From the NCBI GenBank assembly GCA_001600095.1, contig BCIX01000004.1, positions 1,926,586 through 1,990,585 on the forward strand: a stretch of 64,000 bases of DNA. The letters run 5' to 3'. The position numbers were made by a program, and so were the translations under genes. Below the pieces are notes generated by a model, which was given only the letters and a program-made list of their open reading frames with translations, had not been told where the DNA came from and made no database searches. This DNA is from Bullera alba (Eukaryota > Basidiomycota > Tremellomycetes > Tremellales > Bulleraceae). Shown in pieces: positions 12,990-64,000 of the stretch (its first letter is position 1; each line of letters starts with the position of its first letter).

Positions 12990-14400
12990 ATGTCTACTTC
13001 TCAGCTTACGCTCGCTGGCAAGCCCGTCGGCCGTATGGGGTGAGCACAGTACCGGGCTCGGACAAGTATGATGACTAGACCACTATGCTGATCAGGTCTC
13101 AGCTTCGGCCTCATGCAGCTCACATGGACTCCAGAGCCAAAGTCTGACGAAGTCTCTTTTGCGGCTATGAAGTGAGTCAGTCAGCTTTACACAGTCGCAA
13201 CCAGCTGACCGACGCTTGCAGAGCTGCAGCGGATGTCGGTGGCACGGCCTGGTCGACAGCCATGTTCTACGGCAACCCCGGTCATCTTACTGATAACATC
13301 AAGCTGATCAGGAGGTTTTTTGACAAGGTAAGTCCTCAATTCGTGCTCGTTCTTCAGCTGATCTTCTGCCAGTATCCCGAGTATGAAGACAGGATTGTGC
13401 TCGTTGTCAAAGGCGGATTGGACGATTCTTTCGGCTTTCCAAAGGGGTGGGTGGACTTGTACCAGTCACATATTCACAGGGTATCACTGCTGATCACATG
13501 CACTCCTGCAGTGACCTGGTCGAATTCGCTCGAGGGGAGCTCAAGCGATGCCAGGAGCTTCTGGGCAACAAGAAGATCGATGTGTATAGCATCGCCAGAG
13601 TTTACAAGAATGTCGAAGAGATCTTCCGAGACGTCAAGGTGCTGCACGACGAGGGTCTCTTCGCGGAAGTCGGAGCAAGCGAGATCAGCGCTGGCTCTCT
13701 GGAGAAGGCCCACAAAGTCAGTCATCTCAATGCGTGATCCGACACTAGGTTTCTGGATCACTGATAATACGCTCAGATCGTGCCAATCTCCGTCGTTGAG
13801 ATCGAGGTGTCGCTGTGGTCATACGAGCAGCCAGCCCAAGACGTCATCAAATGGTCAACCAAAAACAAGGTCCCCGTCTTGGCTTACTCTCCACTTGGCC
13901 GAGGATTCATCACGAGAACTTTCAAGACTCCGGAGGATGTTCCCAAGGGTTCCGTACAGAGCCATTCCCCTAGGTTCCACGGCGAGGCCTTTTACGACAA
14001 CCTCAAGCTGGTCGACGAACTCGACAAGCTTGCTGAGGAGAAGGGTCTCAAGACACCTCAATTGGCTTTGGCTTGGGTGTGCGGTCTTAACCCATACGTG
14101 AGGGACCAGATTCAGGCCGACGGTATGATATCAGAACTGTCGCTTATTCAGGCTGCAGATGATCCCAATCCCAGGATCCTCGGATCCGGAGAGGGTCAAG
14201 TCCAACATCCAAGCAGCCGAGATCCAGCTCACGGATAAGGATCTCGAGGGAATCAACAAGATCCTCGCCAACTTCAAGGTCAAAGGTGGCCGATATCCGG
14301 AAGCACGATCCGCTGAATTGGTGAGTCACGAATTGTTCTATCGATCCTGTTTGCCCGCTACATACTGACGGACTCGTGATTCTAGATGGAGCATCAATAG
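12990..14400 (+). CDS. Aldo/keto reductase, pyridoxal-reductase-like, copy 1
   Basis: NADPH-dependent reductase resembling the AKR8 pyridoxal reductase of fission yeast, which converts pyridoxal to pyridoxine. Exons: 12990-13039, 13103-13171, 13222-13327, 13373-13446, 13512-13716, 13777-14097, 14159-14320, 14386-14400; 333 residues. The final coding exon has only 15 nt (MEHQ, stop). Visible features are GFGLMQLTW near the N terminus, AMFYGNPGH with the catalytic Tyr, IVLVVKGG with the catalytic Lys, the barrel strands VEIEVSLWS and PVLAYSPLGRGF, and the cofactor-binding MIPIPGSSDPERVKSN. The usual AKR catalytic His is replaced (SIARVYKN), as in pyridoxal reductases. The tandem duplicate lies directly downstream. 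Fold assignment is firm; pyridoxal as substrate is a family-based inference. Confidence 0.85.
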
Positions 14401-14892
14401 CCATCAGGTACGCCTGGGCGGATCAGGCCTCTCACGAGGTGTCCAGTGATCACAGAGAGTAAGGAACCCGCTGCTCTGTAGTCTACGTTCTGATAGTATT
14501 CCATAATTCTAGCTATATGACTATGGAGATGTAATAGTCAAATGCGCGACTAGCAGTGGTCCCCTCTGCAAATGGTAGGCTGTGGTCCTCGTTGTGGTGG
14601 GTAGTAATAGTATGAGAAGCACTCAAGGGTCGAAGAACAGAAAACAGATTCGCACGGTTGAACCGCCACGTGGTTGACCATCTCGGCCTTGCCTCCACCT
14701 CCACCTTGTTCGGTCACCGGGAATTCGAAGTAGACGATCTACTTTCAACGCATCATCCACATCCCCGAGTCTCTCAATCGTCTATATTAGAGCGATTACA
14801 GGTCACAGGTCTCTCCATCTTTCCGATACATCAGCTTACACCCACATACGACCTCGTACCACTCATCAGAACCTCACTGCCAGTACCTCATC
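14401..14892. promoter_or_regulatory. Spacer and promoter of aldo/keto reductase 2
   Basis: Contains the 3' flank of copy 1 and the promoter of copy 2, including the GCCTCCAC...TTCGGTCAC block (about 14692-14717) shared with copy 1. No gene seen. Confidence 0.35.
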
Positions 14893-16283
14893 ATGTCCGC
14901 ACCACAACTCACGCTCGCAGGCAAACCCGTCGGACGTATGGGGTGAGTAGGGGTACTTCGATCTGGTCGTCAAGCTAATCGAATCCTAGCTTTGGTCTCA
15001 TGCAGCTCACATGGACGCCTGAGCCAAAGTCCGATGAGGTCTCTTTCGCTGCCATGAAGTGAGCATCCATGAATGCACAGTTGCGAGTACTCGCTGATCG
15101 ATCGATGTAGAGCCGCTGCAGACGCAGGAGCTACTGCTTGGTCGACAGCCATGTTCTACGGCAACCCAGGCCACCACACTGCCAACATTGAGCTCATCAG
15201 GAGGTTCTTCGACAAGGTGAGCTGCCGTACTATTATCGAGACCTTTGCTGAGATCCATCCAGTACCCCGAATACGAAGACAAGATTGTGCTCGTCGTCAA
15301 GGGCGGAATAGACGAGTCCTTCAGCTTCCCAAAGGAGTGAGTCTTACCCGTCACTCCAGTATGTGTGGTATGGTACATCGCTGATCATCTTCGCACGTCA
15401 GAAATGCCATCGAATACTCCCGTCAAGAACTCAAACGCTGCCAACAGCTCCTCGGCAGCAAGATGATCGACGTGTATACCATCTCGAGAGTTTACAAAGA
15501 CGTAGAAGAGATCTTCAGGGAGGTCAAGGTCCTGTACGATGAAGGGCTATTTGGCGCTGTTGGAGCGAGTGAGATCACCGCTGAGGCTCTCGAGAAAGCT
15601 CATAAGGTCAGTTCGACCGAGGTGTACTCAGACCGACGAATGGTATCGACAGCTGATGTCCCTCTCTTAGATCGTTCCGATCTCCGTTATCGAGATCGAG
15701 GTCTCTCTGTGGTCATACGAGCAGGAAATCAAAGACGCCATCAAATGGTCTACCGAGAACAAGGTGCCGATCTTCGCTTACTCCCCCCTCGGTCGAGGTT
15801 TCATCACTCGAACATTCAAGTCTCCCGAGGACATTCCAGAAGGTTCCTTCCAGAAACATTGCCCCAGATTCCAGGGCGAGGCGTTCTACGACAACCTCAA
15901 GCTGGTCGATGAGCTTGATAAGCTCGCCGAGGAGAAAGGTCTCAAGACACCACAGCTAGCTCTAGCTTGGGTCTGCGGTCTCAACCCATACGTAAGTGGA
16001 ATACTATTTGATCTCGGAATCATCACTGACTGAGACTGCAGATGATTCCAATCCCAGGGTCTTCTGATCCGGAGCGGGTCAAGTCAAACACACGAGCCGC
16101 CGATATCAAGCTCACAGACAAAGACTTGCAAGGAATCAACGACATCTTGGCCAACTTCGAGGTCAAGGGCGGGCGATACCCAGAATCGCATTCTGCCGTT
16201 CTGGTGAGTCACCACTCATTGTCTGACTTTCTCATCCCGGCTCTACGCTGACCTACTTGTCTTCATAGATGGAGAATCAGTAA
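14893..16283 (+). CDS. Aldo/keto reductase, pyridoxal-reductase-like, copy 2
   Basis: Tandem paralogue of the upstream reductase. Exons: 14893-14942, 14990-15058, 15111-15216, 15263-15336, 15402-15606, 15671-15991, 16042-16203, 16269-16283. Their lengths (50, 69, 106, 74, 205, 321, 162, 15 nt) equal those of copy 1 exactly, giving 333 residues; introns have diverged. Key features are kept: AMFYGNPGHHT, IVLVVKGG, VIEIEVSLWS, PIFAYSPLGRGF, MIPIPGSSDPERVKSN, and the four-residue terminal exon MENQ. As in copy 1 the standard catalytic His is absent (TISRVYKD). Transcribed toward the minus-strand repeat region; the 3' ends of this gene and gene A face each other. Confidence 0.85.
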
Positions 16284-16667
16284 GACACAAGTAGTGCCGG
16301 AGGGAAACAGTCTGCGTATACAGATCTTTCCAGTATTGAAGGAGCGCGGAGAGCGAGCTGTCCGGACCCGAGGATAGTGCGATGGATATACATGTCATGG
16401 AGATGCAGCTGTACAATATAAATGAAATAGGACCGGATTCTTGTATTCTCAGACTGTAGCCTCTGTACGATGCACAGTGCTCTGTACGAGTCAAACTGGG
16501 CGGAGCAAAAGACAATTTTGCATTCGTGACGTCGCGACTATAGTACGTACAAGGAGTTCGAGTACAACAAGTTCGTGGCATCCTAGATCATGGCTTTTGG
16601 GCGACGGTGATAGGGCAAAATGGAGCTTTTGGTGGAGGAGGCAGAGATGAGAGTTCGCGCAGCTAAT
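16284..16667 (-). other. Terminal 3' UTR exon of gene A and tail-to-tail spacer
   Basis: After the acceptor of cassette copy 1 (CCCGGTAG-type, here GGTAGATTAG) the gene A transcript would continue here until its poly(A) site, facing the 3' end of the reductase gene. No open frame with family features. Assignment as terminal exon is inferred by analogy with genes C and D. Confidence 0.4.
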
Positions 16668-17141
16668 CTACCGGGCGTCAGCGCAACCCGGCAGGTCCTT
16701 TTCCTCCCAGACTCCAGAAACCAAACAGGATAACGAAGAGTGAGGGAGTCAAGTGGGGATACGATACAACTGTGATCGATCACTCCGGCGCGAAGGAGAC
16801 CCTACCAGAAGCGAAATCGAAGATCGATCTCGGTCCCAGCAGATGGATACCGTGGTGCGAACGACATGGGCGTCCCGACGAGTAGCACCACAGGACAGGA
16901 CCAGATTTGTAATGTACTCCCACCAGACGCAGTTGAGGTGACACGACCTCGCTCGGCGATACGCTGATTGTCCGTGGAGGGGATCTAGGCGTACGAAAAG
17001 TTCAGGATGGGATCCCTAGCTCTCGCAAGTCGCCTCAACCGCTCAACACCGCGCGGCATTGAGATTGGCCCCACGGACAGCAGGACCGAATCAAGCTTAG
17101 GTCATGCCACTTCCAGCAAGCAAATCAAGAGGTCTACTCAC
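16668..17141 (-). repeat. Structured 3' UTR intron cassette, copy 1 (gene A)
   Basis: 474 nt from GTGAGTAGACC to the TAG that follows TTGCGCTGACGCCCGG. It keeps the shared core elements: TTGCTTGCTGGAAGTGGC near the donor, CTCCTTCGCGCCGGAG, and the terminal hairpin with the CTGAC branch point in its loop. The central outer stem here is GGTGC...GCACC enclosing GGG-ACG-CCC. Confidence 0.75.
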
Positions 17142-17239
17142 GATTGCTATCTCCAACACCTCGCGCTCCTACTGAGATCTTCGGTCGGATGGTTGATAAG
17201 GTGTTGGGGAAGAGTGGAGATCGTATCGAGCCACAGCGG

Positions 17240-17709
17240 CTACCGGGAGTCAGCGCAACCCGGCAGGTCCTTTTCTTCCCAAACTCCAGACACCAAATAG
17301 GATAACGAAGAGTGAGGGAGTCAAGTGGGGGTACGGTGCAACTCTAACTGATCACTCCGGCGCGAAGGAGATCCTACTGGAAGAGGAATCGAAAGTCGAT
17401 CCCAATCCCAGTATACGGACACAGTGGTGCTCACGACAAGGGGCGTCCCCGATGTGTAGCACCATAGGACAGAATCAGAACCGTAAGGTATCCCCACCAG
17501 ACACAGATGAAGTGGAATAGCCTTGCATGACAATACACTGGCTGAAGACGGAGGGGATGCGTACGAAAAGTTCAGGACGAATCCCTAGCTCTCGCAAGTC
17601 GCCTCGACCGCTCGACACCGCGGGGTGCCAAGATTGGCCCCGCCGACAGTAGGATCGAATCACACTCGGCCACGACACTTCCAGCAAGCAAATGAAAGGA
17701 TCTACTCAC
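17240..17709 (-). repeat. Structured 3' UTR intron cassette, copy 2 (gene A)
   Basis: 470 nt, GTGAGTAGATCC to CTCCCGGTAG. Central helix GGTGCT...AGCACC enclosing GGGG-ACG-CCCC; the CTCC-GGCGCGAA-GGAG hairpin (read on the + strand) is unchanged. It is separated from copy 1 by a 98-nt presumptive exon and from copy 3 by 232 nt. Confidence 0.75.
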
Positions 17710-17941
17710 GATCGCCTCCTAGACTCCCGATATGCTTGTCAAACTAGTCCAACGAAGGTGATAGACGAATCGAGTCGATCTCCAAAAGGGTGATGTTGTT
17801 TCAGCGGTGTCTCCGTGGGTAATGGAAGGAGTCACCGGTCGTGGTGAGGTGTTGAGATAGTGTGAGATGGATACAATGTGTCCAAATAGGACGTGACCAG
17901 GGGGAGCGAGAAAGGGTTGAAGTCGAGTCGAGATGTCACAA

Positions 17942-18414
17942 CTACCGGGCGTCAGCGCATCCCGGCAGGTCCTTTTCCTCCTAAACTCATGACACCGAGA
18001 TGGATAACATGGAATGAAGGAGTCAAGTGGGGGTAAGATACATCTCTGATCGATCACTCCGGCGCGAAGGAGATCCCGCTAGAAGAGGGATCGAAAATCG
18101 ATCCCAGTCCAAGTGTTTGGATACAGTGGAGAAGTGGCAGAAGCGTCCCCGCTGCACGACTCCACTGGACAAGATCAGAGCTGGAGCGTCTCCCCACCAG
18201 ACAGGGTAGTGAAGTGGCACAACTTTGCCCGGCGATACGCTGACTGCCAACGTAGGGGAGCTGTACGACAAGTTCAGGACCGGTCCCCTAGCTCTCGCAA
18301 GTCAAACTCGACCGCGCAACGCCGCGCGGCGTTGCGATGGGCTCCGCGGACAGCAGGATCGGATCAGGTGTGGGTCAAGCCACTTCCAGCAAGCGACTTG
18401 TGAAGTCTACTCAC
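17942..18414 (-). repeat. Structured 3' UTR intron cassette, copy 3 (gene A)
   Basis: 473 nt. Its donor lies 27 nt after the stop codon of gene A. Central helix GTGGAG...CTCCAC enclosing GCAG...CTGC: different bases from copies 1 and 2 but pairing is kept. The terminal stem has one change (GCGCATCCCGG on the + strand). Confidence 0.75.
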
Positions 18415-18441
18415 ATTCGATGGCAGTCTTCTGGTCGCCTG

Positions 18442-19454
18442 TTACGTCGAGTCGGACTCCACTGTCAAGGCATTACCAGATTGATCATTGTGGGTCGATG
18501 AGCTTCCGATGTGTGCTGTCTGTTGGATCCTAGCTTCAAGCTCGACTGGGGGAAGCGATTCGCTCGCGTCAGCGAACACTTTTGTCGTATCGAAGCGGAC
18601 CACCAGGATAGAGGCTCGGTAAATACTCACTGTTCCTTCTCGTGGTGGCAGCCCAGAACGCCTTGTATCGTATACCCCTCTTTGCGGCCTTTGAGAGGGT
18701 CTCGTCTTGTGAACCTGCCTCTGACGACCCTCCGATGCTTCTCTGATAGCTATCTCCGCGGTCCACTTTCATCCAGAAGTATTAGCGAGCATCCTTGTCG
18801 CTACGAGAAAAGGGCGTCTCCGACATCAAACTCACTAGATGTAGGGCTCTTGAGTCGGATGTATCGACTACGTGAGGGTCTTTTTGGTTCCTCGGAACAG
18901 CTGACCGATTCCTCGTCCTCCCCTTGGCTCTCCTCGTCCCACTTTTCTCCCTCGTCGTTCCACCTTTCTCCCTCCTCGTCGTTTTGTTCTTCCTCCCTGT
19001 TCTCCTCTCCAGTAGCGCACTCGTTTTCGGACACCTCCTCCTCGGGATGTTCCTCTTCTTCACGCGATTGAGATGACGAGGCTTGAACAGGCGTACACAA
19101 CTGCTCGACTTCGTCCATCTCCAAGAGGTCCTCCAGCATTTGGATTCTCAACTTGAATTTGCGAGTCTCGACGACTCTAGAACCAGTATACGCAAGGATA
19201 CGTATGACCGCGAGGTCTTCCGGGGTTTGGTCGCGTCCGAAAGGTCGAGTATTCACGGCGCTGCGCTGCACGTTGTTGTATGACGGTGGCCTTGGGGTCC
19301 GCTGTTGCACTGGCCTGTCGCGACTGAATACGTCTCTAGCCTCGTAGGCGAGGTTTCTTGGTCCAACTTCCATCTTGTCGGTGGTGGTAGATTTTGATCG
19401 CGATTCGAAGAGAGCGGGGGGATTCTTAATAGCGATGGGCGGCGCCTTTATCAT
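18442..19454 (-). CDS. Gene A: coiled-coil/acidic protein of the VEDLC family
   Basis: Unknown function. Exons 18836-19454, 18631-18765 and 18442-18545 give 285 residues. A 5' UTR intron (19483-19530, CTAAC branch point) precedes the start MIKAPPIAIK. Residues 1-80 are polar; a helical region with spaced leucines (RKFKLRIQMLEDLLEM) ends in DEVEQLC, the variant of the VEDLC motif found in genes B-D. Next comes a very acidic stretch of about 60 residues (EEEEHPEEEVSENE and similar), then a basic segment (RPSRSRYIRLKSP). Exon 2 is 135 nt with phase-1 introns on both sides, as in C and D, and the last coding exon is 104 nt, as in C, showing common descent despite low protein identity. TAA is followed after 27 nt by the first of three structured introns. 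I recognise no known domain. Confidence 0.68.
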
Positions 19455-20044
19455 CCCCTCGGCAAACTCGACTCGATGGGACCTGGGTATATCGTTAGCC
19501 GTTTCAGAGTTGACTTCCTGATCTACTCACTAGAGGACCTCGTGGGAACCACTGGACTTGGAAGGAGCGAGGAGCGCGAGGCCTGAATGATTGCATCAGT
19601 AGGATTTGCTCAGATCTTCCCCCTCTGGTGACCAGTTCCAGAAGCTGTGCAGTCAAAATCGAAATCCAGCTAGACTGCTGTACCGGTCAAGGCACGCATC
19701 TGTGGCAGCGTGGTAGATCTGTCATCAGGCATAACGCCGTATCCACTGCGACGATAGCGAAATTGGCGGTGATGAAGACACCTATACATGAGGTAAATTG
19801 CTACAAGTCCGTTTACACGTACAACAACAAAATGGGGCAGACATAGCGAATGCCCAACAAGTGCAAGTTGCGCTGATGGGTAGAATCGTATAACGAAGAC
19901 GTCAAATGAGGAATGTGAAGGATGCGCAGACATGCAGTGATGGACTCCAAGAGCTGTAGGGCGAGTCAGTCATCGCTACGGGTCTGGCTATTGCGGAGAT
20001 TTCTCACCTGCTCCAAGCTCGAGGAGTGTATTGCCCGATGTCAT
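19455..20044 (-). other. 5' UTR and promoter of gene A, 3' UTR of gene B
   Basis: Contains the small 5' UTR intron of gene A at 19483-19530. Downstream of gene B a possible donor (GAGCAG/GTGAGA, near 20010) is present, but there is no copy of the structured cassette: the CCGGCGCGAAGGAG and CAGCGCAACCCGGCAG cores are absent. Confidence 0.45.
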
Positions 20045-20677
20045 TCACGCGGACACGACGCTCACGTCCGACGTCGAAGTCGATTCATTGTTTGAGCTGG
20101 GATGAGGTCGCTTCAGATGTGTGCTTCGAGCCTTGACTGGCAAATTGATCTCTGCGAGCGCTCGTCAGTGTCATACTTCAGCATTGTGGACGAGCGAAAA
20201 GGCAGAGAGTTCTCGAAGCAGTGACGACTCACTAGATTTGGCCTTCATACTTTTCCGAGCAAAGTACTTCTGGCTCCGTGCAAACTTCTTATGCCTCCAC
20301 GATAGGCTTGAGACTTGTGTCTCTTGATGACTATCATCATCCGCACGGTGATCTCCCCCAATGCCGTCGACGCTGTCCCCCGGATGAGATGCCTCGCCTT
20401 CTTCAAGCGAGCACAGATCCTCTACGGTCTGTTCGTCTGCTTCTTCCTCCTCGAGCTCCTTTCTCAGATCGTTTAGTCCTAATTTGGTGGCGTACTCGAG
20501 CAGAACTTGCTTGTCGACGGAGACGATGAGTTCCCTTCGATCTTGATTGAGGAACGCGGCGATATCTTTGACCGAAAGACGAGGTTGAGGAGGTCTAGGG
20601 ATGGGTTGATTTGGCGAGAATCGCGATGGCCCCGCTGCGATCCCCGCGCGGGCTTGTTGCGACGATAGAGACTCCAT
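20045..20677 (-). CDS. Gene B: coiled-coil/acidic protein of the VEDLC family
   Basis: Unknown function. Two coding exons, 20233-20677 and 20045-20136, give 178 residues. The start MESLSSQQARAG lies just after a likely 5' UTR acceptor (ATCCAG). The motif order matches its neighbours: Pro-rich segment (PIPRPPQPRLS), helix (LLEYATKLGLNDLRKELEEEEADE), TVEDLCSLEEGEAS, an acidic/His segment, a basic segment (RHKKFARSQKYFARKS), and a Ser/Thr-rich end. It lacks the 135-nt middle exon of A, C and D and lacks the 3' UTR cassette. The gene may be an early-diverging member or one that lost the extra exon. Confidence 0.62.
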
Positions 20678-21476
20678 CTGCTCGGGCCACTGGATATGAT
20701 GTCGATGTAGACGATGGCTTGTCGATAATAGTGTATCGTTACGATAGTTAGCTGGCGGACACGCGTGTAAGACTCGTTCACAGCGTGATGGGACTGATGT
20801 GGTCTCGGGTTGAACGATGCGGCGTAAACCGGGCGACAACGCTTACAGGTTGTGGCGTTCTCGCCAATGGATTGTTGTGGTAGGTGAGAGCGTCGAACGA
20901 TTGGCCGAGCGGGTCTCTGACCGCACCAGAGTACTTGTAGAGCACAGTAGAGTAGAGTAGAGTACGAGGAGTCCAGGTCAGAATCGGCTTCTACACGCGT
21001 CGAGATCGCCGAGACTGGGCGATTGGCAAATCGAGTGTTCCGACGGAACCCGTCGGAAGATCGGGATCTGGCGAGTCACTGTACTGAGGCGGGTGGCTGC
21101 TGGCCGACCGACTGGAATTGGATGCGAGCTCTTCGCTGCGTAGAGTGCTAGGTGAAAACCTGTCGTGACTGCAACGATGGGTGAACGTATCTGACTGATA
21201 TATAGACTTGGAGTGAACAAGCGGAATACATGTGCGAGATATACAAGTTACAATCTACAACAAGACGATTCTAAGTCACAATTTTGAGGGCAGTGAACTG
21301 TGGGTCCCGCCATAGTCCATGCTGCTGTTTCTCAGACGGATCGACAGATTGCGAGTGTACAGTGCGAGATCCATGGTCGTGGTGATGACAGTGGGGCAGA
21401 GCGATGTCTGCGGTACGTGGCGTTGAAGGCGTAATCGTGGAAGGTCGTAAGTCGTGAATGCGTTGAGTCGAAGCAG
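20678..21476 (-). other. Upstream region of gene B and terminal 3' UTR exon of gene C
   Basis: 21236-21476 is the terminal 3' UTR exon of gene C, recognisable because it matches the end of gene D (about 23230-23501), including GGCGGGACCCAC and the CTTGTATATCTCGCACA-type end. The rest is promoter and 5' UTR of gene B. No coding region seen. Confidence 0.45.
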
Positions 21477-21944
21477 CTACCGGGCGTCAGCGCAACCCGG
21501 CAGGTCTTTCTCGTCCCGAGCTGATGCAACTGAGGGGAAGAAGCAAGAAGTTCGGGAGTCAAGTGAGAGATACGCTTCACCTCTGACTGATCACTCCGGC
21601 GCGAAGGAGAACTCATCGGGAAAGATCGCTCTGATCCCGACTTGTATACAGTGGGGCAAACGTAGAGGCGTCCCCCTACGCCGCTTCCATAGGACAAAAT
21701 CAGAGGTGAAGCGTACCCCTCACCAGGAACTGTGAAGTGAAGCGTCTCTTTGCCCGTCCATGCCGTGAACTGAAGCGCCGGGGGGCCGTAAGTTCAGCAT
21801 GGGCCGGTCCCATACTCCCAAAATCAGCTCGACCACACAGAGGTTGTCGCCATACTGTGCCGCAAATGCTACGTCACAAGCAGCCAGGATGGATTCAGGT
21901 GTAGGAGCAGTCACTTCGAGCAAGTGATCCGAGAAATCACTTAC
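21477..21944 (-). repeat. Structured 3' UTR intron cassette, copy 4 (gene C)
   Basis: 468 nt, GTAAGTGATT to GACGCCCGGTAG. The donor lies 12 nt after the stop codon of gene C. It is the clearest copy for structure: 21571-21586 and 21700-21715 form a perfect 16-nt inverted repeat, enclosing the hairpins CGTAGAGG-CGTC-CCCCTACG (21661-21680) and CTCC-GGCGCGAA-GGAG. The terminal stem is 21477-21484 with 21496-21503, loop of 11 nt holding the complement of GCGCTGAC. Confidence 0.8.
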
Positions 21945-21956
21945 TTCGGACTCCCA

Positions 21957-22796
21957 TCATTCTTCCTGGGAAGCTATCGCGTGAAGCGATACGGATCCAC
22001 CGGTGTGACTGGATGAGCCTTCGCCATTGTTTGAGTGCGAAGGACCAGCCTGGCCGTCGACTGGAAGGGGCACTTGTCAGCTTCCGGCTAAGCTTGTCCT
22101 ATGGCACTATGCTATCATCTACTCACAAGCCGAAAGTGTTTTAGCTGCCTTGAGTTCCTCAACCCGCTTGGTCTTGCGCTCCACCCATAGAGAGGGGTCC
22201 TGATCTGAGTTCTCCGCATCAGAGTCCGGTGAACCCTCATGTGACCTGTACCCTCGTTCACCTGAGATGTAGTCAGCAATGATACGCGATGCAGGTCATT
22301 TCCCAGCGAGCACAAGCTTACCATTGTGGCCTGGCCTGTTGTTTCGGCTTCGGTTGGCTCGTTTCTGTGTTCCTGATGCTGGGGGGGATGGTGTACCAGC
22401 TTCTGAGCTACTCGGAGTAGCCTCTGCCGACTCTTCCTCCCAAACTTCCTCCATTTCAGACCTCTCGTCGGCTGACCCCTCATCGACACCACATAGATCC
22501 TCGACTTCCTCGACTTCCCCCCTCTCGATGACGTCTTCCAGCGATTCGATTTTCCGCTTCAGCTGTCGAATTGTGACATCCTGCTCGGCTAGACGTGCGA
22601 CGATACCCAGTAAAGCCAATTCGCCGCTGGTCTGCTCTGTGTCCGGGAAGTTTGGATCCACCTCGTAGACTCCTGGGATGTCGACGTATGCTGGGGGGCC
22701 ACCGACGCGTCGGACTCGTCGTTCAGCTGTGTACACCGCTGCGGTTCGCAGTGCCATATGAACATAGGCGCTCCTGGCTGTGGTGTCTTCTGGCAT
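21957..22796 (-). CDS. Gene C: coiled-coil/acidic protein of the VEDLC family
   Basis: Unknown function; close paralogue of gene D. Exons 22322-22796, 22127-22261 and 21957-22060, 237 residues. The start MPEDTTARSAYVHMALRTAA sits directly behind the acceptor of a 5' UTR intron (22801-22889). Order: an N-terminal block shared with D (PPAYVDIPGVYEVDP), a coiled coil (LARLAEQDVTIRQLKRKIESLEDVIERG in sense, with heptad leucines/isoleucines), VEEVEDLCGVDEGSADE, a Glu/Ser-rich acidic part, a basic RANRSRNNRPGHNG, then exon 2 (135 nt) with RGYRSHEGSPDS. TGA is followed after 12 nt by one structured intron. Strong conservation with D at the N terminus and coiled coil suggests a functional dimerising protein; no enzymatic motif is visible. 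Confidence 0.72.
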
Positions 22797-23501
22797 TTCG
22801 CTGGCGAGATAGGCGTAATAGGTGTAAGGGAGGGGAAGAGTAGGGAAGAAGCATAGCTGAGGTCAATCCCCTGCTTTGTTATAACTCACAAGAGGGCCAT
22901 CATGGCGACTGCCTCTGCTACCCCTTTGCGTTTTGGCTAGATCTTGCAGCTGGCCCAGTGGTCGACTGACTTCTCCTTGCGCTCCTCTGCGGGTACCTAG
23001 GCATCAGTCTGGGCTGAGAGGATCGGCAAGAGTCCTCAGGTGGTCCTCTGCGAATAGCCGAAATCCAAGAGCGATGCGGTCCAGATTGTGATAATTGAAC
23101 ACAACCTGAAACGACGGAGGGCATATTCTTGGGCGGTCAGATCGGTCAGATCGAGTCGAATCAGACACATGCGCCGTGAGCTGGTTGTAGGGGTGGTCAT
23201 CACTCGACTCCATGGGTAGGTACGAGTGACATTTGTGCGAGATATACAAACTACAGAGCTACAAGTTACAACTTTGAACAAGTCTACAATTCGACAAGAC
23301 GATCCTAAACTATAATTTTGGAGAGCAGTGGGTCCCGCCATGACTCATGCTGTACCTCAAACCGTTGGATAAATGAGGAGTTTACAAGTCGGGATATGTA
23401 GTGATGACGGTGATAGTGAGATAACATGGTGTGTGATGTATGGGGGTGTTGAAGGTGTAGTCATCAAGGGTCGTGATCCGAAGTGCGTCGGGTCAAAGCA
23501 G
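22797..23501 (-). other. 5' UTR intron and promoter of gene C; terminal 3' UTR exon of gene D
   Basis: The 5' UTR intron of C (22801-22889) and about 360 bp upstream match the region in front of gene D (27372-27800), e.g. CCCCTTTGCGTTTTGGCTAG and GTGATAATTGAACACAAC. The left part (about 23230-23501) is the terminal 3' UTR exon of D. The whole gene plus promoter was therefore duplicated. Confidence 0.55.
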
Positions 23502-23978
23502 CTACCAGGAGTCAGCGCAACCCGGCAGGTCTTTCTCGTCCCAAACTTCTGCAACTGAGGAAAGAAGGATGGGAGTCGAGTAAGCGATACGCTTCGCCTC
23601 TGATCGATCACTCTGGCGCGAGGGAGATCCCGTTGGGATTAGTACTTCCACCGAAGTAGAAGACTCTAGTCCCAACTTGGATACAGTGGGCCGAGCACAG
23701 GAGCGTCCTCCTGTGCAGCTCCATAGGACATAATCAGGGGTGAAGCGTATCTCTCACCAAGAACAGTGAAGTGATCGTTCTCTTCGCCCGTCAATGCCCG
23801 TGACTGAAGTGCCGGGGATGCCGTCCGACAGTATGAGCCGGTCCCACACTCCCGCGTTCAAGCTCACCACACAGAGGTTCTCACACTGCCGTGATGCCGA
23901 AGCTTCGTCACAACAGCCAGGATTGAATCGGGTGTGGGAGATGTCACTTCGAATAGAGGATCCGAGAGGATCACTCAC
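23502..23978 (-). repeat. Structured 3' UTR intron cassette, copy 5 (gene D)
   Basis: 477 nt, last cassette of gene D. Hairpin CACAGGAG-CGTC-CTCCTGTG (23696-23715, + strand) replaces CGTAGGGG/CCCCTACG of other copies with full pairing, a clear covariation. In the terminal stem CCCGGTAG has become CCTGGTAG, leaving a G-U pair. TAG acceptor intact. Confidence 0.78.
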
Positions 23979-24143
23979 CTCAGATCGTTATCGTCAAGTC
24001 GGGATGGTCATGTAGAGGCTAGAGCCGTAATGAGACTTTCGAGTACAGTGATGCAGCGACGGAGCGAATGCGATGTGTTATAAGTCGGAGTAGAGGCAAT
24101 GTGATGGTCACATGGTTGAGAGCGATATTGAACCCGAAGTGAT

Positions 24144-24607
24144 TACCGGGAGTCAGCGCAACCCGGCAGGTCGTTTTCGTCCCGAACTACAGCCCCGGGA
24201 TAAGAAGCAAAGAGTCGGGGAGTCAAGTGAGGGATACGCTTCACCTCTGATTGGTCACTCCGGCGCGAAGAAGAACTCATCGGGAAAGATCACTCTGATC
24301 CCGACTTGTATACAGTGGGACAAACGTAGGGGCGTCCCCCTACGCAGCTTCCATCGGACAAAATCATAGGTGAAGCGTATCCCTCACCAGGAACTGTGAA
24401 GTGAGGCATTTCTCCGCCCGTCAATACCTTGACTGAAGCGCCGGGGATGCCGTACGTTCAGTATGGGCCGGTCCCATACTCCCGCAATCAGCTCACCACA
24501 CGGAGGCTTTCGCACTCCCGTGCTGCCGAAGCTGCGTCACAGCAGCCAGGATTGAATCGAGTGTGGGAGATGTCACTTCGAGTGGAGGATCCGAGAGAAT
24601 CACTCAC
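24144..24607 (-). repeat. Structured 3' UTR intron cassette, copy 6 (gene D), acceptor mutated
   Basis: All core elements are present, but the position of the 3' splice site reads CCCGGTAA instead of CCCGGTAG, so the usual AG is lost. The GTGAGT donor, hairpins and CTGAC are intact. If spliced at all, it must use a later AG or be skipped to the acceptor of copy 5. Confidence 0.7.
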
Positions 24608-24774
24608 CCCAAGATCGTTATCGTCAAGCCGGGATGGTCAAGTCGAGTCGTAATGAGATTGAGGATATCGAGTACAATGATACAGCGAGGGAGCGAATGC
24701 GATGTGTGATAAGTCGAAGCAGAGGCAGGGTGATGGTGACATGGTTGGAGTCGAAGTTGTTGAACTCGAAGTAA

Positions 24775-25258
24775 CTACCGGGAGTCAGCGCAACCCGGCA
24801 GGTCGTTTTCATCCCAAACTACAGCCCCGGGATAAGAAGCAAAGAGTTGGGGAGTCAAGTGAGGGATACGCTTCACGTCTGTCGATCACTCCGGCGCGAG
24901 GGAGATCTCATCAGGGTATGAGATTCCCACCGAGATGGGAGACTCATATCCCGAGTCGATACCGTGGTGCAAACACACGAGCATCCCCATGCGAAGCCTC
25001 CACAGGACAAAAGCAGAGGTGAAGCATACTCCTCGCCCGAAGCTGTGAAGTGAATCCTCTCCTTTCCTGTCCATGCCACGAACTGAAGCGCCGGGGGGCA
25101 GTAAGTTCAGCACAGGCCGGTCCCATACTCCCAAAATCAGCTCGACCACACAGAGGTTGTCGCCATACTGTGCCGCAAATGCTACGTCACAAGCAGCCGG
25201 GATGGATTCAGGAGTTGGAAAAGTCACTTCGAGTAGGAGATTCGAACGAATCACTTAC
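24775..25258 (-). repeat. Structured 3' UTR intron cassette, copy 7 (gene D)
   Basis: 484 nt, the longest copy. The central hairpin CGCATGGG-GATG-CTCGTGTG (minus strand) keeps eight pairs through several G-U pairs although its sequence differs from copies 8 and 9. Terminal stem and CTGAC loop intact; TAG acceptor. Confidence 0.76.
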
Positions 25259-25397
25259 CTCGTGATTGTAGTGATCCAGTCCAAGTGAAAGTTCGAGTGC
25301 GGAGTATAGCGACAAAGCGAATGCAGTACGTGGTGAGTCGAAGTACAGGAAGTGTAATGATGGCGTTGTTGGTGACGATGTGCGTGAAGTCGAACAG

Positions 25398-25864
25398 CTA
25401 CCGGGCGTCAGCGCAACCCAGCAGGTCTTTCTCGTCCCGAACTGCGGTCAAATTGGAAGGAAGACAGAAGTTCGGGAGTCAAGTGAGAGATACCCTTCAC
25501 CTCTGATTGATCACTCCGGCGCGAAGGAGAACTCATCGGGAAAGATCGCTCTGATCCCGATTTGTATACAGTGGGGCAAACGTAGGAGCGTCCCCCTACG
25601 CAGCTTCCATAGGACAAAATCAGAGGTGAAGCGTACCCCTCACCAGGAACGCGAAGTGAAGCATCTCCTTGCCTGTCAATGCTCTTAACTGAAGTACCGG
25701 GGAGTCGTACACACAGTATGGGCCGTCTCCATACTGCTACAATCAACTCGACCACACGGAGGTTGTCGCCGTACCGTGCCGCTAGTGCTACGCCACAAAC
25801 AGCAAGGATGGAATAAGGGGTTGGAGAAGTCACTTCGAGTAGGGGATTCGAATGAATCACTTAC
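25398..25864 (-). repeat. Structured 3' UTR intron cassette, copy 8 (gene D)
   Basis: 467 nt, nearly identical to copy 9. One change in the terminal stem (CCCAGCAG instead of CCCGGCAG on the + strand) leaves a G-U pair. Flanked on both sides by 139-nt presumptive exons of similar sequence. Confidence 0.78.
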
Positions 25865-26003
25865 CTCGTGATCGCAAGGGTCCAGTTCAAGTGAAAGTTC
25901 GAATGTAAGATATGTCGAGAAAGCGAATAAGATGTATGGTGAGTCGAAGTAGAGGAAGTGTAATGATGACGATGTTGGTGACGATGCGCGTGAAGTCGAA
26001 CAG

Positions 26004-26470
26004 CTACCGGGCGTCAGCGCAACCCGGCAGGTCTTTCTCGTCCCGAACTACGGTCAAATTGAAAAGAAGACAGAAGTTCGGGAGTCAAGTGAGAGATACG
26101 CTTCAACTCTAATTGATCACTCCGGCGCGAAGGAGAACTCATCGGGAAAGATCGCTCTGATCCCGACATGTATACAGTGGAGCATACGTAGGGGCGTCCC
26201 CCTACGCAGCTTCCATAGGACAAAATCAGAGGTGAAGCGTACCCCTCACCAGGAACGTGAAGTGAAGCATCTCCTTGCCTGTCCATGCTCTCGACTGAAG
26301 TACCGGGGAGCCGTACACACAGTATGGGCCGTCTCCATACTGCTACAATCAACTCGACCACACGGAGGTTGTCGCCGTACCGTGCCGCTAATGCTACGCC
26401 ACAAACAGCAAGGATGGAATCAGGGGTTGGGGAAGTCACTTCGAGCAAGTGTTTCGAGAGAATCACTTAC
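26004..26470 (-). repeat. Structured 3' UTR intron cassette, copy 9 (gene D)
   Basis: 467 nt, first cassette of gene D; its donor (AAAG/GTAAGTGATT) lies 18 nt after the stop codon. Contains CACTT-GCTCG-AAGTG near the donor, the perfect hairpin CGTAGGGG-GACG-CCCCTACG, TCGGGATC...GATCTTTCCCGA, CTCC...GGAG, CCCGAACT...AGTTCGGG and the terminal stem. Confidence 0.8.
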
Positions 26471-26488
26471 CTTTGGGATTAAGCCGCG

Positions 26489-27367
26489 TCATGCTCGATC
26501 GAAGACGCGAGTCTCGCCGGCTGGCACCGATGTCGGGTCTCGAGGCGTTCGTGTTCCATCGGAGCGACTAGAGGAACCTTCGCCGACAACTGACGGATAG
26601 GGGGTGTCTCCTCGTGCTAGAAGAGAGGCGTGTCAGCGGCTGCTCTTCCCTCTCTTCAACTCACTCGTTCTTTTCATTCTGATCATCTTCTGATATCCAG
26701 CTCGTCCGGATTTCCTGTTGGCTCGCGACGAAGGACCAGGTTGTTCGTCTTCCTCTTCAGCGTCCGGAGACCCCTCATGTGACCTGTACCTTTGTTCACC
26801 TGAGAGGCAATCAGTATTGGAACGAGCTCCACATCAAAGCGTAGCCTGCAAAAGCTTACCAATGCGGCCTGGCCTGGTGGTTCGGCTTCGAGTAGCCTGT
26901 TTCTGCGTCTCGGACGGTGACGGAGACTGTGGATCTCCTTCTGAGGAGGAAGAGGGTGACTCTGACTCTGCTTCTGGGCTGCTCGAAGTAGCCTCTGACG
27001 ATTCTTCCTCCCAAAACTCCTCGATATCGGACCTCTCGACGGCTGATCCCTCGTCGACACCACATAGGTCCTCGACTTCCTCTATCTCCCCCCTCTCGAT
27101 GATATCTTCCAGCAATTCGATTTTTCGTTTCAGCTTTCGAATCGTGACGTCCTTTTTGGCTAGGGAAGCGACGATGCCGAGTAAAGCCAATTCGCCGGTG
27201 GTTTGCTGTGTGTCCTGAAAGTCTGGATCCACCTCGTAGACTCCTGGGATGTCGACATATGCAGGAGGAACACCGACGCGTGGGACTCGTGCTGCAGCTG
27301 TGTACCCCGCTGCGGTTCGGAGGGCCATGTGGACATAGGCTCTCCGGGCTCTGGTGTCTTCTGGCAT
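26489..27367 (-). CDS. Gene D: coiled-coil/acidic protein of the VEDLC family
   Basis: Unknown function; closest to gene C. Exons 26860-27367, 26665-26799 and 26489-26616, 256 residues. The start MPEDTRARRAYVHMALRTAA follows the acceptor of an 88-nt 5' UTR intron (27372-27459). It shares with C the block PPAYVDIPGVYEVDPDF, a coiled coil (KKDVTIRKLKRKIELLEDII), EIEEVEDLCGVDEGSA, an acidic Ser-rich part (about residues 115-150), a basic segment (RSRTTRPGRIG) and the 135-nt second exon (RYRSHEGSPDAEEEDE). The last exon is Ser/Thr/Pro-rich. TGA is followed by five tandem structured introns spread over 3 kb, so the 3' UTR gene segment is far longer than the coding part. No known domain recognised. 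Confidence 0.72.
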
Positions 27368-28221
27368 TTCGCTGGCGAAATAGGTGTAATAGGTGTAAGG
27401 GAGGGGAAGAGTAGGGAAGAAGCATAGCAAGGTCAACCGCCTGCTTCGTTATAACTCACCAGAGGGAATCATGGCGTCTGCCTCTGCTACCCCTTTGCGT
27501 TTTGGCTAGATCTCGCAGCCGGTCCACTGGTCCACTGTCCTCTCCTTGCGCCTCTCTGCAGGTACCTAGGAATCAGTCTAGGTTTATAGGATCGGCAAGG
27601 GTCCTCAGAGGGTCCTCTGGGAATAGCCGAGATCCGAGAGCGATGCAGCTCAGATCGTGATAATTGAACACAACTTGAAACGACGGGGCCTATATTCTTG
27701 GCCGGTCAGATCGGTCAGATCGAGTCGAATCAGACACGTGCGCCGTGAGCTGAATTGAAGCGGCCATCACTCGACTCCATGGCTAGATACGAGTCACGCC
27801 GTGTCTCGTCGATGATGAGCAGGCGATTTAACAGCTGAAAGTTGGCTGAAATGATGGATTGAGAGTTGTTTGAGAGTACGTTCGAATGATGTGTTTGGAG
27901 GTCTGGTCGATCGTCGGAAGGGATGGGCGGCCGAGTTTGTAATGGCTTCGGACGAAGCCGCTAATCGACTTTGCGGCTGTTCCGATCGGCGATTACAAGA
28001 CGACTAGAAGCGAAGACGCCCGGCATTACGATTCTCTTAATCGAGCCGAGCTTAAGCTTAACGGATCGGACAACTTGCCAACCGTTGACCGATTGCTGAC
28101 AGGTGACGACAAGGCTACAAGCTAAAGTGCTCTCTGTAAAGTGAACCGATACATAGAGGAGGTGTTTGAATCAACTTGATGTAGAAGTCAACGACTCGCA
28201 ATCATCGTCTCTCAGCCGCCG
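27368..28221. promoter_or_regulatory. Divergent promoter region of gene D and the Na+/H+ antiporter
   Basis: 27372-27459 is the 5' UTR intron of D, and up to about 27800 the sequence is duplicated in front of gene C. An upstream ATG (CGCCATGATTCCCTCTG/GTGAGT) lies in the first UTR exon of D and could act as a short upstream frame. The remaining 400 bp toward the antiporter show nothing I can name. Confidence 0.45.
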
Positions 28222-62990: not shown

Positions 62991-64000
62991 ATGTCGTTCC
63001 TGCTACTGGCCATGACTGTCGTTCCTGCCTACTTCACTATGGTTCAAGGCCATATGGCCGTCTGGCATTCATCCGTCTATGGTTTCGATCAGCCCTACGA
63101 ACCGGTCACACCTCTTGCCAACAAACCGTTCGGAGACTGGGTAGGTTCAAGAACTCCTCTCCCTACATGTATGACTCGTACCAGTGGCTTACTATCCTTT
63201 GTGTTCTAGTGGTTCCACGGCAATGCCAACGACAATCCTACCGAAGTCATGTCTCTGGTCCCGGGAAGCGATCTTACCGTCGAACTTGCTTGTCGCAAAG
63301 CTCATAGCTCTTACGGAGGTGGACAGGCTACCGCGGATGCCTGTCCTATCGACTCTGGTGCCTATCATGCGGGTGGTACAACAGACGTCAAGAGCGGCTG
63401 GGAGGGAAACTCGGAGAGCTCTCTGCTTGGCTGCGCCATGGCAATCGCCTTCAAACCCAACGCTGCGGATGTTCAACCCGAAGACTTCACTGTCATGTCT
63501 GTTCAAGAAAGGTGTGTTCGACAACGGATGACCACCTTCGCTCTACCCTCCAATCTACCCGCTTGTCCAGAAGGTGGTTGTACATGCGCCTGGTTCTGGC
63601 AGGGCAAGAACTCGGCACTCGAGATGTACATGACCGGATTCCGGTGTGATGTCGAAGGTGGAGCTCAAGGCGGCAACTATCCTACTCCAGCACCTCCTAA
63701 ACGAGGCGGAGACTTCAGTGGACCGACTCAACCGATGTACTGGGCCAACACACCAACAAACCTCGACTACACCCCCACATACGAGACCAAGCCTTCGTAC
63801 AACTCTGCTTTTGGCTGGAAGAATGGAGCCCAGACTTCTGCTTTCGGCGCTGGAGGTTCAGTCAACCCGAACGGTGCTCCTAATCTTGTTGCAAACTCGA
63901 CGGCGGTGACTCCTAGGCCCAGTTCTAGCTCTGGCCCTGTGATTGAGAATGACGAGGAGGAGCTTCTGGAGGAGCCTGAGGAAGAGGCGGAGGTGGAACC
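62991..64000 (+). CDS. Secreted AA14-like lytic polysaccharide monooxygenase, 3' end beyond window
   Basis: Copper oxidase likely acting on xylan-coated cellulose. Exon 1 62991-63140 and exon 2 from 63210 to the edge, at least 313 residues seen. Signal peptide MSFLLLAMTVVPAYFTMVQG ends before His, giving the N-terminal His of LPMOs: HMAVWHSSVYGFDQPYEP. The splice junction forms FGDWWFHGN. Later CTCAWFWQGKNSALEMYMTGFRC matches the conserved end of AA14 domains. After the domain come a Pro/Ser-rich linker and, at the edge, a strongly acidic run (EEEELLEEPEEEAEVE). Assigned to AA14 by the N-terminal motif and the CAWFW/MYMxGF block; a related copper-binding surface protein is possible. Confidence 0.75.

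Follow-up and report, generated by a model that had tools for sequence, protein, structure and literature searches.

A 64,000-nucleotide (nt) stretch of the Bullera alba genome (C4:1926586-1990585 of a 19.4-Mb assembly with seven contigs; hereafter the window) carries nine long, related segments that are very probably spliceosomal introns and, together with 15 further copies elsewhere in the same genome, members of one structured RNA family. This follows from the splice signals, the sharp boundaries of the repeated unit and a common fold with covariation, and it agrees well with the intron-borne RNA element that an earlier note on this DNA had proposed. The best explanation of the whole, to which we assign a probability of about 0.5, is that these structured introns would be released as stable linear RNA by splicing, a release step that we infer.

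The nine segments are found on the minus strand between positions 26470 and 16668, where the earlier note had placed them, and measure 465-484 nt by the boundaries of this analysis (previously 464-484 nt). Across the whole segment they are 65-94% identical to one another (36 pairs). All nine start with GTRAGT and carry a CTGAC with its A placed 10 nt upstream of the final base, and eight end in TAG. The ending CTGAC-N-CCYGGTAG is found in all but one of them, and the odd copy, the sixth when counted from low coordinates, is 24607-24143 (W4), which ends in TAA. The introns and the spacers between them are listed here.

26004..26470, minus strand: structured intron W1, 467 nt, 18 nt past the stop codon of host gene 1
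25865..26003, minus strand: spacer exon W1/W2, 139 nt, poor in G, with little predicted structure
25398..25864, minus strand: structured intron W2, 467 nt, 94% identical to W1; P1 not predicted with flanks
25259..25397, minus strand: spacer exon W2/W3
24775..25258, minus strand: structured intron W3, 484 nt
24608..24774, minus strand: spacer exon W3/W4
24143..24607, minus strand: structured intron W4, 465 nt, TAA end in place of TAG; acceptor apparently lost
23979..24142, minus strand: spacer W4/W5
23502..23978, minus strand: structured intron W5, 477 nt; P5 not predicted with flanks
21477..21944, minus strand: structured intron W6, 468 nt, 12 nt past the stop codon of host gene 2
17942..18414, minus strand: structured intron W7, 473 nt, 27 nt past the stop codon of host gene 4; neither P1 nor P5 predicted when it is folded singly with its flanks
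17710..17941, minus strand: spacer exon W7/W8
17240..17709, minus strand: structured intron W8, 470 nt
17142..17239, minus strand: spacer exon W8/W9
16668..17141, minus strand: structured intron W9, 474 nt

The stop codons of host genes 1, 2 and 4 (26491-26489, 21959-21957 and 18444-18442) precede the first intron by 18, 12 and 27 nt, in line with the 12-27 nt reported before. The end of contig C4 lies about 1 kb beyond position 64000 of the window, which places the arrays about 38-48 kb from the contig end.

The count of nine proved too low for the genome as a whole. A pattern for the 3' hairpin matched the own genome 20 times (reversed control: 0) and a shorter pattern 23 times (reversed control: 1). 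A degenerate version of the 3' pattern gave 22 matches and a variant with an extra loop base two more, both with none in the reversed control, and these two make up the family total of 24 copies on four contigs: nine in the window, six at C4:1446541-1450959, one at C4:1614151, five on C6, two on C1 and one on C2. The copies are 303-484 nt long, except for the single degenerate copy C6:1048917 (628 nt). The 15 copies outside the window were located via the 3' hairpin, and their starts were then placed at an upstream GTRAGT. Within 700 nt upstream, 13 of these 15 have one GTRAGT, while C4:1614151 and C6:1053152 have a second one further off; the start of C2:2366376 is based on GTRAGT alone. A scan with the 5' motif gave 31 matches versus 26 in the control and was not used for counting copies.

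The earlier note had asked for an alignment of the segments and a covariance search of this genome. Models of the two ends were run on 138 kb with E values up to 1. The 3'-end model recovered all 24 3' ends. The 5'-end model gave 26 matches, namely 23 5' ends of family members and three weak ones (E 0.056-0.28), and left the 5' end of C2:2366376 unrecovered. As the covariance search covered 138 kb, distant family members may possibly have been overlooked. Several candidates were rejected as copies: three of 18 loose matches (C6:1051854, C6:1075105 and C6:1204379), the shorter-pattern match C5:144891, contig C5 having no match to either end model (R1 or R2), and C4:992757, likewise without a match to R1 or R2. 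C6:1204379 had been included in one alignment and was dropped because it lies inside a coding frame that we take to be WD-repeat-like from its appearance.

The splice signals extend to the whole family. GTRAGT opens all 24 copies (in 15 by choice of start), YAG closes 23 (W4 being the exception), and 22 have CTGAC as branch site, the other two having CTAAC and CTGAT respectively. Twenty-three copies have the branch A 10 nt upstream of the final base and the remaining one has it 13 nt upstream, and 12 of the 24 have an exonic AG directly before the intron. The sequence features of U2-type introns are present: GTRAGT with exonic AG, a branch site, YAG and conserved spacing. The four ordinary introns examined in the host genes are only 48-60 nt long.

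The boundaries of the unit are sharp. Identity between clusters was computed ungapped and position by position, with counts over copy pairs, so that related copies count repeatedly. From exon position -30 to -4 it stays at background (0.22-0.30), then reaches 0.43, 0.50 and 0.35 at -3, -2 and -1, and 1.00, 1.00, 0.64, 1.00, 1.00 and 1.00 at the first six intron positions. At the other end it is 0.53-1.00 inside the intron and 0.93 at its last base, and drops to 0.28 at +1. Judged from the sequence, the profile at the 5' boundary is that of a 5' splice site, AAG/GTRAGT. The enrichment of exonic (A)AG and the drop in identity outside the intron are both independent of the choice of start, and the enrichment falls outside the helices described below.

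Folding cluster by cluster returned the same outline. It stands out in W1-W6, in W7-W9 and in the C6 group, can be made out in the portion of the C4-group fold covered, and is fainter in the C1 pair. In the first helix (P1) the initial GTRAGTRR pairs with YACTTGC or a variant of it, and the 5' splice site thereby forms one strand of a hairpin. The long domain P2 contains an inner helix of CYTG-ATT-CNNT against ANNG-N-CARG. It is followed by a second long domain, P3, apparently reduced in the copies of 303-329 nt, and by P4, a stem of highly variable sequence. A short linker with GACC at its end leads to P5, where CTGCCGGG pairs with CCCGGYAG, the loop enclosing the branch site and the stem including the acceptor AG. 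The degenerate C6:1048917 retains the P5 hairpin with altered letters (CCGCCAGG/CCTGGTGG). The shared cores named in the earlier note are present. In W1 the elements are arranged as follows.

26445..26470, minus strand: P1, 5' strand GTAAGTG paired with CACTTGC
26259..26443 (approximate limits), minus strand: P2 domain, branched, with the CYTG-ATT-CNNT / ANNG-N-CARG inner helix
26089..26255 (approximate limits), minus strand: P3 domain, closed by GGTGAGGGGTACG.../...CGTATCTCTCAC and containing the CTCC-TTCGCGCC-GGAG hairpin
26041..26083, minus strand: P4, TCCCGAACT with AGTTCGGGA
26004..26030, minus strand: P5, CTGCCGGG / CCCGGTAG, the loop containing CTGAC and the 3' strand the acceptor AG

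The fold was examined in two alignments, A2 with 21 of the 24 copies (without C4:1447428, C6:1048917 and C2:2366376) and A3 with 23 (without the C2 copy); all copies come from one genome, and the divergent ones were aligned by a sequence aligner. In P1, 86.1% of the cells are paired and 29 cells are changed on both sides (23 copies). When the helix is slid by one to three columns, pairing falls to 32-45% with at most 10 such cells, and across 500 shuffles the real percentage of pairing, the 29 doubly changed cells and the covariation score were never reached. The inner helix of P2 is paired in 164 of 168 cells (21 copies), compared to a mean of 148.6 and a maximum of 157 in 5000 shuffles, and occurs in forms such as CAAT/ATTG, CAGT/ACTG, CGAT/ATCG and CCAT/ATGG; for this test the 3' strands were hand-picked from the motif, which favours pairing. 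By eye, C4:1447428 pairs poorly in this helix. P1 and the P2 inner helix covary across copies. In P5, 99.4% of the cells are paired (21 copies), and the third pair varies between G-U, G-C and A-U. P5 is the most conserved part of the intron, though it was also the handle with which copies were found. In a non-structural alignment of the 3' module, the covariation score was equalled by six of 500 shuffles. Over the 24 copies, the folding energy has a mean z of -4.2 relative to dinucleotide shuffles.

In the window, predicted folding energies are -0.38 to -0.42 kcal/mol per nt for the nine introns and -0.06 to -0.26 for the six spacers (G content 12-22%). Such an alternation of structured domains with weakly structured spacers would also be expected from an array of structured domains that is kept in the mature 3' untranslated region (UTR), with GT...AG being part of the fold. 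The branch site and the YAG, however, fit spliceosomal signals, and the exonic (A)AG is enriched where no described helix would call for it. In addition, five of the first six positions in the 5' strand of P1 are invariant while the partner strand varies (an invariance that stems partly from start selection). An array of this kind without splicing is accordingly considered very unlikely.

The position of the splice sites within the helices brings in the chief rival of the released RNA. Folded with flanks, GTRAGT has a mean pairing probability of 0.86 over the 24 copies, the acceptor AG one of 0.88 and the branch A one of 0.25. Because P1 hides the 5' splice site, the intron could act as a splicing switch in cis. 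Both splice sites, the 5' one in P1 and the acceptor in P5, would stay concealed until a factor or a change in conditions opens the helices, and whether the intron is retained or removed would decide how the host mRNA is exported, degraded or translated. Such a switch leaves unaccounted for the up to five tandem copies, the two large inner domains and the copies behind no recognised gene, and P1 itself has a probability below 0.5 in 9 of the 24 copies. We regard it as possible, with a chance of somewhat more than one in four.

How the copies came to be where they are can be partly traced. Segments 22213-23183 and 26751-27752 are a tandem segmental duplication of a host gene with its upstream region (pieces 74-88% identical, spacing about 4.5 kb). 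Between W1 and W2 the introns are 94% alike and the downstream flanks 93%, and the arrays grow via duplication of an intron together with its downstream spacer. C4:1448325 and C4:1450959 present another picture: they agree at 0.79 inside, and their flanks at 0.50 and 0.53, compared to 0.50 and 0.51 after shuffling. Judging by this pair, introns can outlive their flanks. Ordinary tandem or segmental duplication of one long intron, with a functionless RNA, is in keeping with W1-W6 and W7-W9, which are local duplications, partly with spacers. Against it stand the compensatory substitutions that P1 and P2 show between clusters and the better preservation of introns than of flanks, and as a full account it is highly improbable.

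Mobility of the unit is possible. Introner-like selfish introns would copy themselves to new sites, their structure serving the copying, for instance by reverse splicing or by reverse transcription from the conserved 3' hairpin. The sharp boundaries, the pair that is 79% identical inside with flanks at background, the spread of host positions over more than one kind of gene and the strong conservation of P5 (by which, however, the copies were found) would all suit such elements. Yet just 24 copies were found, mostly near stop codons, and the closest pairs (similarity was taken from the best 60 of 276 pairs) lie mostly in tandem arrays or paralogous genes. Across the 24 copies, the longest adjacent repeat that could be a target-site duplication (TSD) measures 2 nt, and a terminal inverted repeat (TIR) is not discernible, a mean of 2.7 of 10 terminal positions being complementary, which is about chance. 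Selfish copying is hence an unlikely overall explanation.

The released-RNA reading takes the 24 long spliceosomal introns to be folded over their full length as P1, P2, P3, P4, linker and P5. They would be spliced out by the spliceosome and then debranched, and the excised intron would persist as a linear structured RNA with a hairpin cap at each end. The exons past the stop codon would be little more than carriers, and the arrays would raise the dose of intron RNA. The intron is viewed as the product because the structure is flush with both ends, the fold has several domains, the introns stand in arrays and the exons are without visible content. It also counts for this reading that neighbouring gene 3, probably related to the host genes, bears an intron of ordinary appearance in a similar position.

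A number of results weigh against it. Enclosing the 5' splice site in a hairpin would be expected to impede splicing. The acceptor AG of W4 is apparently lost; if the other copies are spliced, W4 may be retained, or splicing may pass on to the following acceptor at 23502. The 1.00 identities at GTRAGT, part of the identity at the 3' end and part of the agreement at the branch site result from how the copies outside the window were selected, and the between-cluster identity of 0.58 at +2 after the intron, compared to 0.28 and 0.25 at its neighbours, is unexplained. As for the fold, the number of P1 pairs changed on both sides is equalled in 148 of 500 shuffles, and the number of P1 pair types, which lies weakly above the shuffles, in 39 of 500. 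No P5 pair is changed on both sides in the 21 copies, and for the 3' module the number of such pairs is equalled by 281 of 500 shuffles. The folding energy is not unusual in C4:1448325 (z -0.53) and C6:1048917 (z +0.70), and in single-sequence folding with flanks P5 falls below 0.5 in 7 of the 24 copies, next to the 9 in which P1 does. An exact-pattern search of viral contigs and prokaryote genomes returned no match. Finally, the human FLEXI RNAs that were tested are sensitive to exonucleases, according to PMC11460701.

The genes that precede the introns are more diverse than the single family assumed in the earlier note. Among the 12 host positions, four follow genes of an acidic protein family by protein match, four are linked to it by a short motif only, two follow zinc-finger-like genes and two have no recognised gene. 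The genes concerned in the window and those with cysteine-histidine motifs are the following.

26489..27367, minus strand: host gene 1, encoding an acidic protein with an EVEDLC motif and read as three coding exons split by introns 26859-26800 and 26664-26617
21957..22796, minus strand: host gene 2, paralogue of gene 1, exon 1 78% identical
20045..20677, minus strand: gene 3, probable relative by its VEDLC motif only, no protein match to the acidic family, without a structured intron
19954..20007, minus strand: ordinary-looking 54-nt intron, 37 nt past the stop codon of gene 3, GTGAGA...CTGAC...CAG, its place comparable to that of the structured introns
18442..19373 (start approximate), minus strand: host gene 4, of the family of genes 1 and 2
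L060 6147-6998, L066 3210-3926 and L074 3190-3663: genes with C-terminal cysteine-histidine motifs, a structured intron following two of the three

Genes 1, 2 and 4 and the gene before C4:1614151 form one family of short acidic proteins (mutual matches with E 7.6e-7 to 7.9e-68). Only an EVE(D/E/Q)(L/M)C or AAEQLC motif links this family to the genes ahead of C6:1053152, C6:1073408, C6:1206129 and the C1 pair; among these, the first two match each other well, the C6:1206129 gene weakly (E 0.069). C4:1450959 and C2:2366376 are placed after genes with C-terminal cysteine-histidine motifs, which remind us of retroelement Gag proteins. A third such gene, at C2:339704, has no structured intron within the 6 kb examined. 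Pfam searches gave no match for the three zinc-finger-like proteins and none above the cut-off for nine host-region proteins. Among 5.8 billion proteins, gene 1 found six matches, two of which (P0001 and P0005) are the window's own and four come from other sources, and a zinc-finger-like gene found one.

No recognised gene lies ahead of C6:1048198 or of the five-copy array C4:1446541-1448325 (L060 2640-4726), whose five introns are separated by spacers of 53-169 nt. One frame is open across its five junctions, which is weak evidence of coding; in W1-W3 two frames are open across the junctions, perhaps because the spacers are poor in G, and frame openness carries little weight. A restriction to 3' UTRs, as first proposed, is not supported at C4:1614151. 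There the likely frame runs without a stop as far as the intron and, if spliced, ends four codons later, and this copy seems to interrupt a reading frame. Elsewhere in the window, 13148-16033 holds two tandem, apparently paralogous frames (14000-14102 and 15894-15996 are 84% identical), which resemble aldo/keto reductases.

A cmscan of window positions 16300-27700 against Rfam, with E up to 5, gave one match to a clustered regularly interspaced short palindromic repeat (CRISPR), far below threshold (E 2.6), and neither a group II intron nor a small nucleolar RNA (snoRNA). A group II intron was therefore set aside, there being no match to the curated covariance models in this region. Searches among open-licence papers showed no description of this intron family either, in line with the view that it was previously undescribed, and the passages covered of a survey of fungal structured RNAs (PMC5640933) mention no such element.

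The introner-like elements of the Pezizomycotina, as portrayed in PMC4457414 and PMC9860276, are similar in being families of sequence-similar spliceosomal introns in one genome. Here, in contrast, the copies are few, lie mostly near stop codons and occupy few kinds of host gene, and their 303-484 nt share one multi-domain fold, with no TSD or TIR found. The Pezizomycotina were the sole non-aquatic introner group in the first survey, and since the same source (PMC9860276) calls ascomycetes an outlier in this respect, the lack of TSD and TIR leaves a fungal introner possible. The threshold of at least five sequence-similar introns per genome, as cited in PMC12403724, compares with 24 copies here. 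Under a broad definition the family could be named introners, with a small gene spread and no TSD or TIR seen. The sister stwintrons of Hypoxylaceae and Xylariaceae (PMC9024468 and PMC12403724) are likewise repeated fungal introns with a predicted structure that masks splice elements. They are nested, and terminal inverted repeats join their two ends, whereas here each end has a separate hairpin; no nesting was noticed in the copy alignments, in which no systematic search for it was made.

The nearest functional model for the proposed mechanism is provided by the human FLEXI RNAs (full-length excised linear introns), which are structured and remain as linear molecules that begin and end at the splice sites (PMC11460701). 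FLEXIs are at most 300 nt by definition and have been seen by sequencing, whereas the present introns are one homologous family, mostly longer and deduced from DNA sequence. UTR introns of Cryptococcus neoformans are less conserved and likelier to be retained than introns of open reading frames, as stated in PMC5006051.

In snoRNA host genes the exons serve as carriers and the functional RNA resides in the introns, an arrangement like the one proposed for this family. Unlike an intron-encoded snoRNA, the fold here is not internal and reaches both intron ends. HAC1-type introns are cut by Ire1 and have their cut sites in loops. Hairpins at their boundaries are mentioned in PMC4937481, and hairpins at both ends are what they have in common with the present introns. 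HAC1-type splicing was set aside, as GT-AG, branch-point and U1-type exon signals are present and the splice sites lie in stems and not in cut loops.

Beyond the single family, it is conceivable, though we would put it clearly below even odds, that these introns represent a novel class of noncoding RNAs, large and multi-domain, each coextensive with a spliceosomal intron. The spliceosome would then be the processing enzyme, the end hairpins would be built from the splice signals, and the tandem arrays behind fast-evolving genes would be production units. Repeated introns usually count as selfish elements, and intron RNAs with structure as one-off examples. The family supplies covariance models for searching other fungi. 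A homologous family structured over the full length of the intron, its 5' splice site inside a helix, would allow one organism to be used to address both how the spliceosome handles sequestered splice sites and whether an excised intron can be a gene product.

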